Below are positions 27,274 to 28,929 of a stretch of 64,000 nucleotides of DNA, piece after piece; position 1 is the stretch's first letter, and every line of letters starts with the position of its first letter. Source of the stretch: Variovorax paradoxus (lineage in GTDB: Bacteria; Pseudomonadota; Gammaproteobacteria; Burkholderiales; Burkholderiaceae_C). The notes under the pieces were generated by a model, which ran no database searches, had not been told where the DNA came from, and saw nothing but the letters and a program-made list of their open reading frames with translations. The stretch covers positions 4,464,001-4,528,000 of the forward strand of contig NZ_JAUSXG010000001.1 of the NCBI RefSeq assembly GCF_030815855.1, given 5' to 3'. Both the position numbers and the translations under genes were made by a program.

Positions 27274-27302
27274 TTGGCGCGCCCGCGAGCCCCGCCTACA
27301 AT
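27274..27302 (+). promoter_or_regulatory. Sigma70 promoter of the glycine riboswitch-dadA unit
   Basis: -35 TTGGCG (27274-27279), 17-base spacer, -10 TACAAT (27297-27302). The predicted transcription start, ~27309, falls just before the first aptamer, which strongly supports this promoter. Confidence 0.7.
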
Positions 27303-27308
27303 CGCCCC

Positions 27309-27526
27309 TCTGCAGGAGAGCGGGCAACCCCGGTTGCCCTACCGAAGGCGCAAACTCCCATAAACGCTCAGGTCGGCCCGACGAAGTTCCCGAAACTTCG
27401 GCAAGGGGCTTGTACTGCACCAACTGATATGCCGTCTGGAGAGTCATCACTTCGTGTGATGCACCGAAGGAGCAAACCCGTTGCGGGCGCAACGGGTGAA
27501 TCTCTCAGGTACCGAGGACAGGGGGA
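27309..27526 (+). ncRNA. Tandem glycine riboswitch (gcvT-type, two aptamers)
   Basis: Two copies of the glycine aptamer core are visible. Aptamer 1: GGAGAG, a hairpin GGGCAAC/GTTGCCC (27322-27339), ACCGAAGG, GCAAAC and GCTCAGGT ending 27373. Aptamer 2: GGAGAG, hairpin CATCAC/GTGATG, ACCGAAGGAGCAA, a perfect 9-bp stem ACCCGTTGC/GCAACGGGT (27476-27497) and CTCTCAGGTACCGAGGACAG. These match the conserved core of the two-aptamer glycine riboswitch, which senses glycine and usually controls gcv or glycine transport genes. Here it leads dadA. The stretch between the aptamers is long and holds an extra 7-bp hairpin CGAAGTT/AACTTCG (27382-27400). TGCAG (27311-27315) can pair with CTGCA (27415-27419) to close the first aptamer around it. 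Confidence 0.88.
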
Positions 27527-27529
27527 GCG

Positions 27530-27576
27530 GCAACTTGGACGGCGGCGTCCGGTTGCTTGCTATCTATCCGATAGCA
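27530..27576 (+). promoter_or_regulatory. Two hairpins after the riboswitch (candidate expression platform)
   Basis: Hairpin A: GCAAC-TT-GGAC / GTCC-G-GTTGC (27530-27556). Hairpin B: TGCTATC / GATAGCA with loop TATCC (27558-27576). Neither is followed by a T-run, so this is not an obvious intrinsic terminator. The dadA Shine-Dalgarno AAAGG (27609-27613) is 33 bases further on. Control could act on translation or on Rho-dependent termination (inference). Confidence 0.5.
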
Positions 27577-27621
27577 CGCCTACCCCGCCGTTCAAGCGCT
27601 TCAACCTCAAAGGTACTTGAA

Positions 27622-28929
27622 ATGCGCGTGATCGTTCTCGGCGCCGGCTTGCTCGGCGTGACCTCGGCTTATTACCTCCAGCAACTCGGCCACGAAGTGA
27701 CCGTCGTCGACCGGCAGGCCACCCCCGCCGCCGAAACCAGCTTCGCCAACGGCGGGCAGATCTCGGTCAGCCACGCCGAACCCTGGGCCAATCCGAGTGC
27801 ACCGCTCAAGGTGCTGCAATGGCTGGGCAAGGAAGACGCCCCGCTGCTTTTCCGCATACGCGCCGACATGCGCCAATGGCTCTGGGGGCTGCAGTTCCTG
27901 CGCGAATGCACGCCCGCCCGTACGAAGCACAACATCGAGCAGATCGTGCGCCTCGGCACCTACAGCCGCGAAGTGCTGCAGCAGTTGCGCCGCGATACCG
28001 GCATCGATTACGACCAACGCACACAGGGCATCCTGCACTTCTACACAACGCAAAAGGAATTCGACGGCGCGCTCGAGCCCGCCGAGCAGATGCGCGCGCT
28101 CGGCTGCGAACGGCAGGTGATCTCCGCGGACGAAGCCGTGAAGATCGAGCCCGCCCTTGCCCATATCCGCCCGCAGTTGGCCGGCGCCACCTACACCGCG
28201 GAGGACGAATCGGGCGATGCAAACCTCTTCGCACGTGAGCTGGCAAGCCTCGCAGCTGCGGCCGGCGTGAAGTTCCTCATGAGCCACACGGTGACTGCTC
28301 TGCGAGAAGCCGGCGGCAACATCGACCACGTGGAAGCCACCGACAACGAAGGCCGCTTCCAGCGCATTCGCGGCGACGCCTTCGTGCTTGCGATGGGTTC
28401 GTTGAGCCCGCTTTATGCGGCGCCGTTGGACATTCGCCTGCCGATCTACCCGGCGAAAGGCTACTCGGTCACGCTGCCCGTGAAGGACGCCTCCAAGGCG
28501 CACCAGGTTTCGCTGACCGACGACGAGTTCAAGCTCGTGTTCTCGCGCTACACCTCCGAATCAGGCGACCGCCTGCGCATTGCCGGCACGGCCGAGCTCA
28601 ACGGCTACGACCGCGATTTGAACCGCGTGCGCTGCGAAGCGATCGTACGGCGCGTCGAACAACTCTTTCCCGGCGCCGGCGACATCACGCAAGCGCAGTT
28701 CTGGGCCGGCCTGCGCCCCGCGACACCCAGCAATGTGCCGCTGATCGGCAAGACGAAGCTGCCGAATCTGTACCTGAACACAGGCCACGGCACGCTCGGC
28801 TGGACGCACGCCTGCGGCTCGGGCAAGTCGATTGCGCGGATCGTGAGCGGGCTTGCGCCTGAAATCGATTTCGTGTTCACCGGCATGCCGGCTTCGCGGC
28901 CGCGGATGCCGCAACCCGCACTGGGTTAG
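27622..28929 (+). CDS. dadA: D-amino-acid dehydrogenase, DadA-type FAD oxidoreductase
   Basis: 435 residues. DAO-fold flavoprotein that deaminates D-amino acids to 2-oxo acids, passing electrons to the quinone pool. Signatures: MRVIVLGAGLLGVTSAYYL FAD loop, VVDRQATPAAETSFANGGQI, the DadA-specific SHAEPWANPSAPLKVLQWL, and C-terminal GARPATPSNVPLIG-like and NTGHGTLGWTHACGSGK. ATG 27622 has AAAGG 8 bases upstream. The leader is a glycine riboswitch, so glycine itself may be a substrate or its level the inducing signal (inference). The gene seems unrelated to the glycan genes on both sides. Confidence 0.93.
   Translation: MRVIVLGAGLLGVTSAYYLQQLGHEVTVVDRQATPAAETSFANGGQISVSHAEPWANPSAPLKVLQWLGKEDAPLLFRIRADMRQWLWGLQFLRECTPARTKHNIEQIVRLGTYSREVLQQLRRDTGIDYDQRTQGILHFYTTQKEFDGALEPAEQMRALGCERQVISADEAVKIEPALAHIRPQLAGATYTAEDESGDANLFARELASLAAAAGVKFLMSHTVTALREAGGNIDHVEATDNEGRFQRIRGDAFVLAMGSLSPLYAAPLDIRLPIYPAKGYSVTLPVKDASKAHQVSLTDDEFKLVFSRYTSESGDRLRIAGTAELNGYDRDLNRVRCEAIVRRVEQLFPGAGDITQAQFWAGLRPATPSNVPLIGKTKLPNLYLNTGHGTLGWTHACGSGKSIARIVSGLAPEIDFVFTGMPASRPRMPQPALG

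Follow-up and report, generated by a model that had tools for sequence, protein, structure and literature searches.

The question raised by this locus is why a gene for a D-amino acid dehydrogenase should stand behind a sensor for glycine. The window, that is, the whole stretch of 64,000 nucleotides analyzed herein, is part of a genome of 5.95 Mb, and its closest named relatives by the DadA protein, among the best 80 of 580 relatives, belong to Variovorax. On the forward strand, a promoter-like site, TTGGCG-17-TACAAT (27274..27302), with 9 of 12 consensus matches, is followed by glycine aptamer 1 (27303..27419), glycine aptamer 2 (27426..27531), a hairpin (27530..27556), and a dadA-family gene of 435 amino acids (27622..28929; ATG at 27622 and stop at 28929), which matches both PRK00711 and Pfam DAO PF01266 and is referred to as type A. 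A Shine-Dalgarno-like AAAGG (27609..27613), as read from the sequence, is located 8 nt before the ATG, and is partly paired in the predicted fold of the leader. The promoter-like site is the sole one of its kind in the 601 bases scanned (0.1 +/- 0.3 in shuffled sequences), and a site with at least 8 of 12 matches was found within 70 nt 5' of aptamer 1 in 42 of the 76 type A leaders parsed, the window included. The in-line order of promoter-like site, two aptamers and dadA, as described in the first-pass annotation, was confirmed, and the arrangement is kept in relatives (see below). The reading that we favor, with a probability of about 0.6, is that the tandem RF00504 element functions as an ON switch for glycine oxidation by a DadA-family enzyme, where we infer the ligand, the direction of switching, the substrate and the electron acceptor from sequence comparison.

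The match of both aptamer cores to the glycine riboswitch covariance model, as expected from the first-pass annotation, was established for one of the two. Aptamer 2 (27426-27531) scored 57.0 bits against RF00504 (E 4e-9; gathering cutoff 32), and is the sole Rfam match at the gathering score in the whole window, while aptamer 1 (27303-27393) stayed just below the cutoff at 30.9 bits (E 2.5e-4 in a 501-base scan). Matches to D12-methyl (E 0.15) and mir-555 (E 0.44) in the leader scan were set aside as chance. The same unevenness was observed upon RF00504 scanning of the whole genomes of ten relatives (E up to 1; between 120 and 150 scored candidates in each genome): in the dadA leader, aptamer 2 exceeded the cutoff in all ten (47.4-57.8 bits), and aptamer 1 in five (L013, L018, L031, L036 and L087; 35.8-42.5 bits), the number of relatives with both aptamers above the cutoff being five. 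Aptamer 1 was below the cutoff in two relatives (L044, 27.1 bits; L051, 31.0 bits), and had no RF00504 listing at E up to 1 in three (L047, L058 and L071).

Based on comparison of the 76 leaders, P1 of aptamer 1 was redrawn as pairing of TGCAG (27311-27315) with CTGCA (27415-27419). In the window, a gap of 38 nt (27374..27411) separates the P3 3' strand, CTCAGGT, from the proposed P1 3' strand, GTACTGCA. Among the 76 leaders, 28 have a gap of 3 nt, two of 4 nt and 41 of 17-62 nt at this place, and the P1 motif was not found in five. An insertion as the reason for the low score of aptamer 1 was considered and dropped, because leaders lacking the insertion score no better: four leaders with gaps of 17-60 nt (L013, L018, L031 and L036) pass the cutoff, and of those with a 3-nt gap, L047, L058 and L071 are unlisted and L051 stays at 31.0 bits. 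With the insertion removed as a cause, more weight fell on the reading that aptamer 1 is a ghost, in which glycine is bound by aptamer 2 alone and aptamer 1 serves as structural support. To this reading we assign a chance slightly under one half. It is consistent with the score below the cutoff in the window, the passing of aptamer 1 in five of ten relatives against ten of ten for aptamer 2, and the proposed P1 3' strand, GTACTGCA, which is devoid of the usual GGAC; against it stands the core of aptamer 1, CCGAAGGCGCAA...CTCAGGT, which is nearly invariant in relatives having the leader. Aptamer 1 of this lineage, weak yet kept, may be a candidate ghost.

The direction of switching was approached through the sequence 3' of aptamer 2. 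The hairpin GCAAC...GTTGC (27530..27556; -15.2 kcal/mol), a proposed terminator, begins within the final two bases of aptamer 2 P1. A hairpin with this start and with an arm closing by five pairs was found in 51 of the 76 leaders (11.6% in shuffled sequences), and its arms change together, as in GCAAC/GTTGC, GCAGC/GCTGC and GCATC/GGTGC; in an alignment of 26 leaders, a single pair is changed on both sides. At least five T in the nine positions after the hairpin were counted in 39 of 76 leaders, a figure that carries no chance rate. The window itself has a weak T tract (TTGCTATCTA, with T at 5 of 9 positions), and the consensus scan lists no terminator in the window leader. A terminator-like hairpin with T tract was observed in L115, L160, L161, L026, L027, L031, L033 and L035, and in short leaders, for example those of L053 and L071, the hairpin extends to the ribosome site. 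Predicted folds of the 76 leaders pair the GGAC/GGGG strand with the downstream strand at a mean probability of 0.59, but as the folded sequence runs from CTCAGGT onward, it lacks the P1 5' strand, which therefore could not compete in these folds.

Taken together, glycine binding would stabilize aptamer 2 P1, which would compete with the hairpin starting in its own 3' strand, so that expression would be ON when glycine is plentiful; the competing hairpin would act as a terminator in several relatives and as a ribosome-site hairpin in some short leaders. The hairpin arrangement would be the layout of a glycine-ON switch, a direction that we infer from the modeled pairing. Repression of dadA by glycine, as in an OFF switch, would have a parallel in glycine uptake genes, which are described, in the part of PMC6944388 consulted, as turned down under glycine riboswitches. 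The dadA gene is, however, catabolic, and the alternative hairpin overlaps a strand of the ligand-bound P1, as would be expected for an ON layout; an OFF switch is thus regarded as highly improbable.

The sensor and the gene were then compared among relatives, using as the type A set the best 80 of 580 protein relatives in named genomes (82-94% identical). By the tandem test (two cores plus two CTCAGG motifs upstream), 74 of these 80 were positive. Within 600 nt upstream, no tandem was found in five loci of the 80 (L062, L080, L081, L085 and L092, without any motif), and a stricter motif count adds a sixth miss, L090. Since all six are situated inside type A in the tree, they were interpreted as losses. 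The arrangement is kept in many Comamonadaceae and Sphaerotilaceae, and is present in several further families. Type A genes with the tandem elsewhere were found through the riboswitch (L096, L111, L112, L115 and L121) and through the protein (L160 and L161); the former five and L093, having been found by the riboswitch, are uninformative on frequency. As judged by this sequence comparison, the link of riboswitch and dadA is old.

The neighborhood of the gene is a different matter. The upstream neighbor of the window dadA is rmlB (TIGR01181, 505.8 bits against a cutoff of 365.1), pointing away, and the next long open reading frame downstream is on the opposite strand. The first-pass annotation had placed the unit within a glycan locus, a tie that did not hold because neighboring genes vary between species. 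RmlB/RmlD-like clusters (C6 and C12) were detected at at least eight and at least four of the 80 loci, respectively, both counts being lower bounds as only the longest open reading frame of either strand, often the antisense one, was kept. At other loci, an amidohydrolase-like cluster (C8) lies upstream instead. The glycan-locus link was rejected: rmlB adjoins dadA in the window but such neighbors are not conserved, which argues that gene and riboswitch travel together and that the glycan locus is a bystander. The amidohydrolase-like open reading frame was seen upstream of the riboswitch-dadA unit in L049, L053, L056, L065 and L076 (TIGR01891 in L076); enzymes of this kind could release glycine from acyl-glycines.

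The position of dadA among glycine riboswitch targets was examined at two levels. The genome carrying the window also contains the usual tandem glycine riboswitch before gcvT-gcvH-gcvP. Across the order, RF00504 was present in 32 of 60 genomes, and among the 29 loci fetched besides our own, 22 stand before gcv genes, six before a DadA-family gene and one before glyA (L095); two of the genomes with RF00504 matches, G008 and G015, contributed no locus to these 29. The six DadA-family targets comprise five of type A, from four families, and one of type B (see below). In three of the 22 gcv loci a lipA-like gene stands first; a lipoyl-synthase-like gene followed by gcvT was seen after the riboswitch in L102 (lipA confirmed) and, by eye, in L094 and L116. 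Within another family (f7), RF00504 was present in 20 of 46 genomes, and all 29 fetched loci, some of which are two halves of one tandem, are located before gcvT except L141; none of these 29 loci from the 46 genomes has dadA as the target. In L141 (genome G497), the riboswitch pair precedes an open reading frame that resembles a small secreted protein and matched no NCBIfam model at E 1e-20. The dadA gene is a riboswitch target in some families. Further tandem glycine riboswitches were noted at G884:C15:177114-177323 (genome of L031) and G881:C14:56680-56879 (genome of L047).

Which DadA proteins carry the riboswitch was analyzed by family models, identity and phylogeny. The window protein passes the PRK00711 D-amino acid dehydrogenase cutoff (495 bits against 383), the only subfamily cutoff that it passes, and E. 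coli DadA falls in the same subfamily; its score against Pfam DAO PF01266 is 234.6 bits. Membership in ThiO glycine oxidase was rejected (TIGR02352, 114.4 bits against 250.8), and the score against PRK12409 remained at 328 bits against a cutoff of 494. The latter is the family of type B, represented by L202 (748 bits), which is 36-38% identical to type A. In a set of 21 genomes inferred to be Cupriavidus from an 81% DNA match of their genus to the C. metallidurans megaplasmid, type A was detected at E up to 1e-70 in two (L160 and L161), both with the tandem motif, and type B at the same threshold in nine, all nine with the tandem motif. L093, found by the riboswitch, is also of type B, with 75% identity to L202. 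No tandem was found in 23 loci of E. coli-type DadA (21 inferred Cupriavidus loci, L007 and E. coli) or in the 21 loci read of other DadA paralogs. The riboswitch is restricted to particular DadA types, among them A and B. The genome carrying the window has its own E. coli-type DadA (L007; G000:C1:704776-705999), 62% identical to that of E. coli and devoid of the riboswitch; next to it is an Lrp-like gene (198 bits, under the Lrp cutoff of 233).

In a first tree, type A (starred) was supported at 99/97 and type B at 100/100, both falling together on one side of a branch that is very short (93/70). A second tree, which had fewer rows and a simpler model and included the paralog type D, separated A and D by a 98.5/99 branch from type B, which was placed with classical DadA and the other paralogs. 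Type B is on a long branch in both trees, and the riboswitch may have been gained either once or twice. Types A and B agree at 30 alignment columns where classical DadA differs, but since many of these are common to other paralogs, no conclusion on the active site was drawn. In nine of the 80 loci (L026, L027, L029, L031, L032, L033, L035, L040 and L048), another riboswitch-dadA unit lies immediately upstream, with an aptamer 1 that looks degenerate in L035 and L040. The DadA of this upstream unit is of type D, 39-45% identical, without the ETSFANGGQ stretch near the start, and in the tree joins, by a long branch, the type A genes of Comamonadaceae; in L031 it scores 219 bits, under the DadA cutoff of 383.

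A clue to function was obtained from type B. The published reverse check primer for C. necator dadA6, dadA6-rev, has a site, with one or two mismatches, 1.18-1.25 kb upstream of type B in four of the nine type B loci (L202; L203, which equals L212; L207; and L208), the other five being without the site, and 60 shuffled primers gave no match in the same 53 loci. The partner primer, dadA6-for, was not found near any type B locus nor in 398 genomes of the family of the window; its match in G836 (L159, inferred Cupriavidus) was discarded as chance, as no dadA is there. Plasmid records yielded only relatives with less than 60% identity, and no Cupriavidus name was included among the 120 protein matches listed. 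The primer evidence places type B as the probable counterpart of C. necator dadA6, through one of two primers and in inferred Cupriavidus genomes rather than C. necator itself. In the part of PMC11879842 consulted, dadA6 is called a glycine oxidase, and an engineered C. necator from which it had been deleted improved in neither growth rate nor yield, indicating that dadA6 is not a large sink in that strain; in the consulted part of PMC12421819, glycine oxidase is described as contributing substantially in engineered C. necator.

The probable correspondence of the riboswitch-bearing type B to dadA6 is one reason for favoring glycine oxidation by the window DadA, and the proposal of the first-pass annotation that a glycine-controlled DadA oxidizes glycine gains support from this comparison, since the other DadA type that this riboswitch precedes corresponds to the one called glycine oxidase. 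Counting against a glycine role, the window DadA shares no more than 37% identity with type B and is within the E. coli DadA subfamily, PRK00711. It could be instead a true D-amino acid dehydrogenase for D-alanine or D-serine, for which glycine excess is the signal: excess glycine would disturb the D-alanine metabolism of the cell wall, or accompany a surplus of serine or alanine, and the riboswitch would turn on D-amino acid removal. The PRK00711 cutoff is passed by both the window DadA and E. coli DadA, and the latter, according to the consulted part of PMC9436414, has a kcat/KM of 5.71 per M per s for D-serine against 0.275 for glycine, and a KM for glycine above 500 mM. With E. coli DadA so poor on glycine, type A, if it oxidizes glycine, must differ from it. 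An E. coli-type DadA without riboswitch (L007) is, however, already present in this genome, and the DadA types that bear the riboswitch are two and distinct, the dadA6 type being one, whereas none of the 23 classical loci read has it. A role in D-amino acid removal is accordingly judged unlikely, though less so than the OFF switch, and the window enzyme is most likely, on these sequence grounds, a glycine dehydrogenase. It would be FAD-dependent and probably quinone-linked, converting glycine to glyoxylate and ammonia, and the glyoxylate could be used by glyoxylate carboligase and malate synthase. Both are encoded in the genome of the window (glyoxylate carboligase, 1158 bits against 711; malate synthase G, 1196 against 989), so that glyoxylate has outlets. 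The DadA route would thus run in parallel with glycine cleavage, the operon for which is under a riboswitch of its own.

A possible pairing between the two aptamers bears on how a weak aptamer 1 might still act. Loop L3b of aptamer 1 contains CTCCC (27355..27359), complementary to GGGAG (27523..27527), a stretch of the aptamer 2 P1 3' strand that by eye has no partner in the 5' strand and is proposed as the L3b partner. L3b is likewise, in many leaders of gcvT and of dadA types A and B, complementary to the strand just 3' of aptamer 2 P1, with variants such as CTCCC/GGGAG, CGCCCC/GGGGCG, TCACCC/GGGTGA and ATCCC/GGGAT; L128, L133 and L134 pair by CCC/GGG alone. Own pairs were more stable than swapped pairs (-9.92 against -8.99 kcal/mol, p 0.0035) over 31 lineages, a set that includes close kin (L128 and L134; L160 and L161; L202 and L093) and is what remains of 34 after removal of L096 (mis-parsed), L061 and L078, the last of which fitted badly (rank 31) so that its removal helps the result. 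Three controls were negative (p 0.74-0.96). The covariation is seen when gcvT and other targets are taken by themselves (p 0.006, n=23), but the eight dadA lineages by themselves do not reach significance (p = 0.36). A pairing of this kind between the two aptamers is a possible feature of the tandem glycine riboswitches of Burkholderiales. In structural work, P3b of aptamer 1 contacts P1 of aptamer 2; we know of no base pairing described at this contact.

A wider proposal can be put forward tentatively, at somewhat less than even odds. The riboswitch would mark hidden glycine dehydrogenases among DadA annotations, belonging to no fewer than two types (A and B) that are deeply separated, and these would form a second branch from glycine to glyoxylate beside the cleavage system in parts of Burkholderiales, the label of D-amino acid dehydrogenase being wrong for them; in addition, L3b of aptamer 1 would in these leaders pair just 3' of aptamer 2 P1, where the terminator or sequestering hairpin has its first strand, and a poorly glycine-binding aptamer 1 could in this way still influence the output directly. 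If true, a vague annotation becomes a testable function, the riboswitch telling which DadA homologs meet glycine, and the handling of glycine excess besides the cleavage system is explained. The proposal is also of relevance to the engineering of formate and glycine metabolism in Cupriavidus; dadA6 has been removed there as a candidate glycine sink, with no gain in the strain concerned.

In the literature searched, no glycine riboswitch paired with dadA or a D-amino acid dehydrogenase was found, and the present case is that of a known riboswitch class on a target for which no description was found there. Twelve groups of glycine-metabolism genes under glycine riboswitches are described in the consulted part of Sun 2013 (PMC3766115), and dadA may already be among them. 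With the RF00504 element of gcvT operons, the dadA leader shares the Rfam family, the tandem order and the core motifs, but differs in the target and in the weaker aptamer 1, the proposed P1 3' strand of which is without GGAC. E. coli DadA shares the PRK00711 subfamily with the window enzyme at 40% identity, but its gene has no glycine riboswitch motif and adjoins dadX, and the enzyme is very poor on glycine in vitro. ThiO glycine oxidase belongs to the same wider family of FAD oxidoreductases, with the window protein below the ThiO cutoff. A parallel in regulation is DadA6 of C. necator, also of the DadA family, the locus type of which bears a tandem glycine riboswitch in the inferred Cupriavidus genomes, although the DadA6 type is 37% identical to the window enzyme and belongs to PRK12409 (L202) in place of PRK00711.
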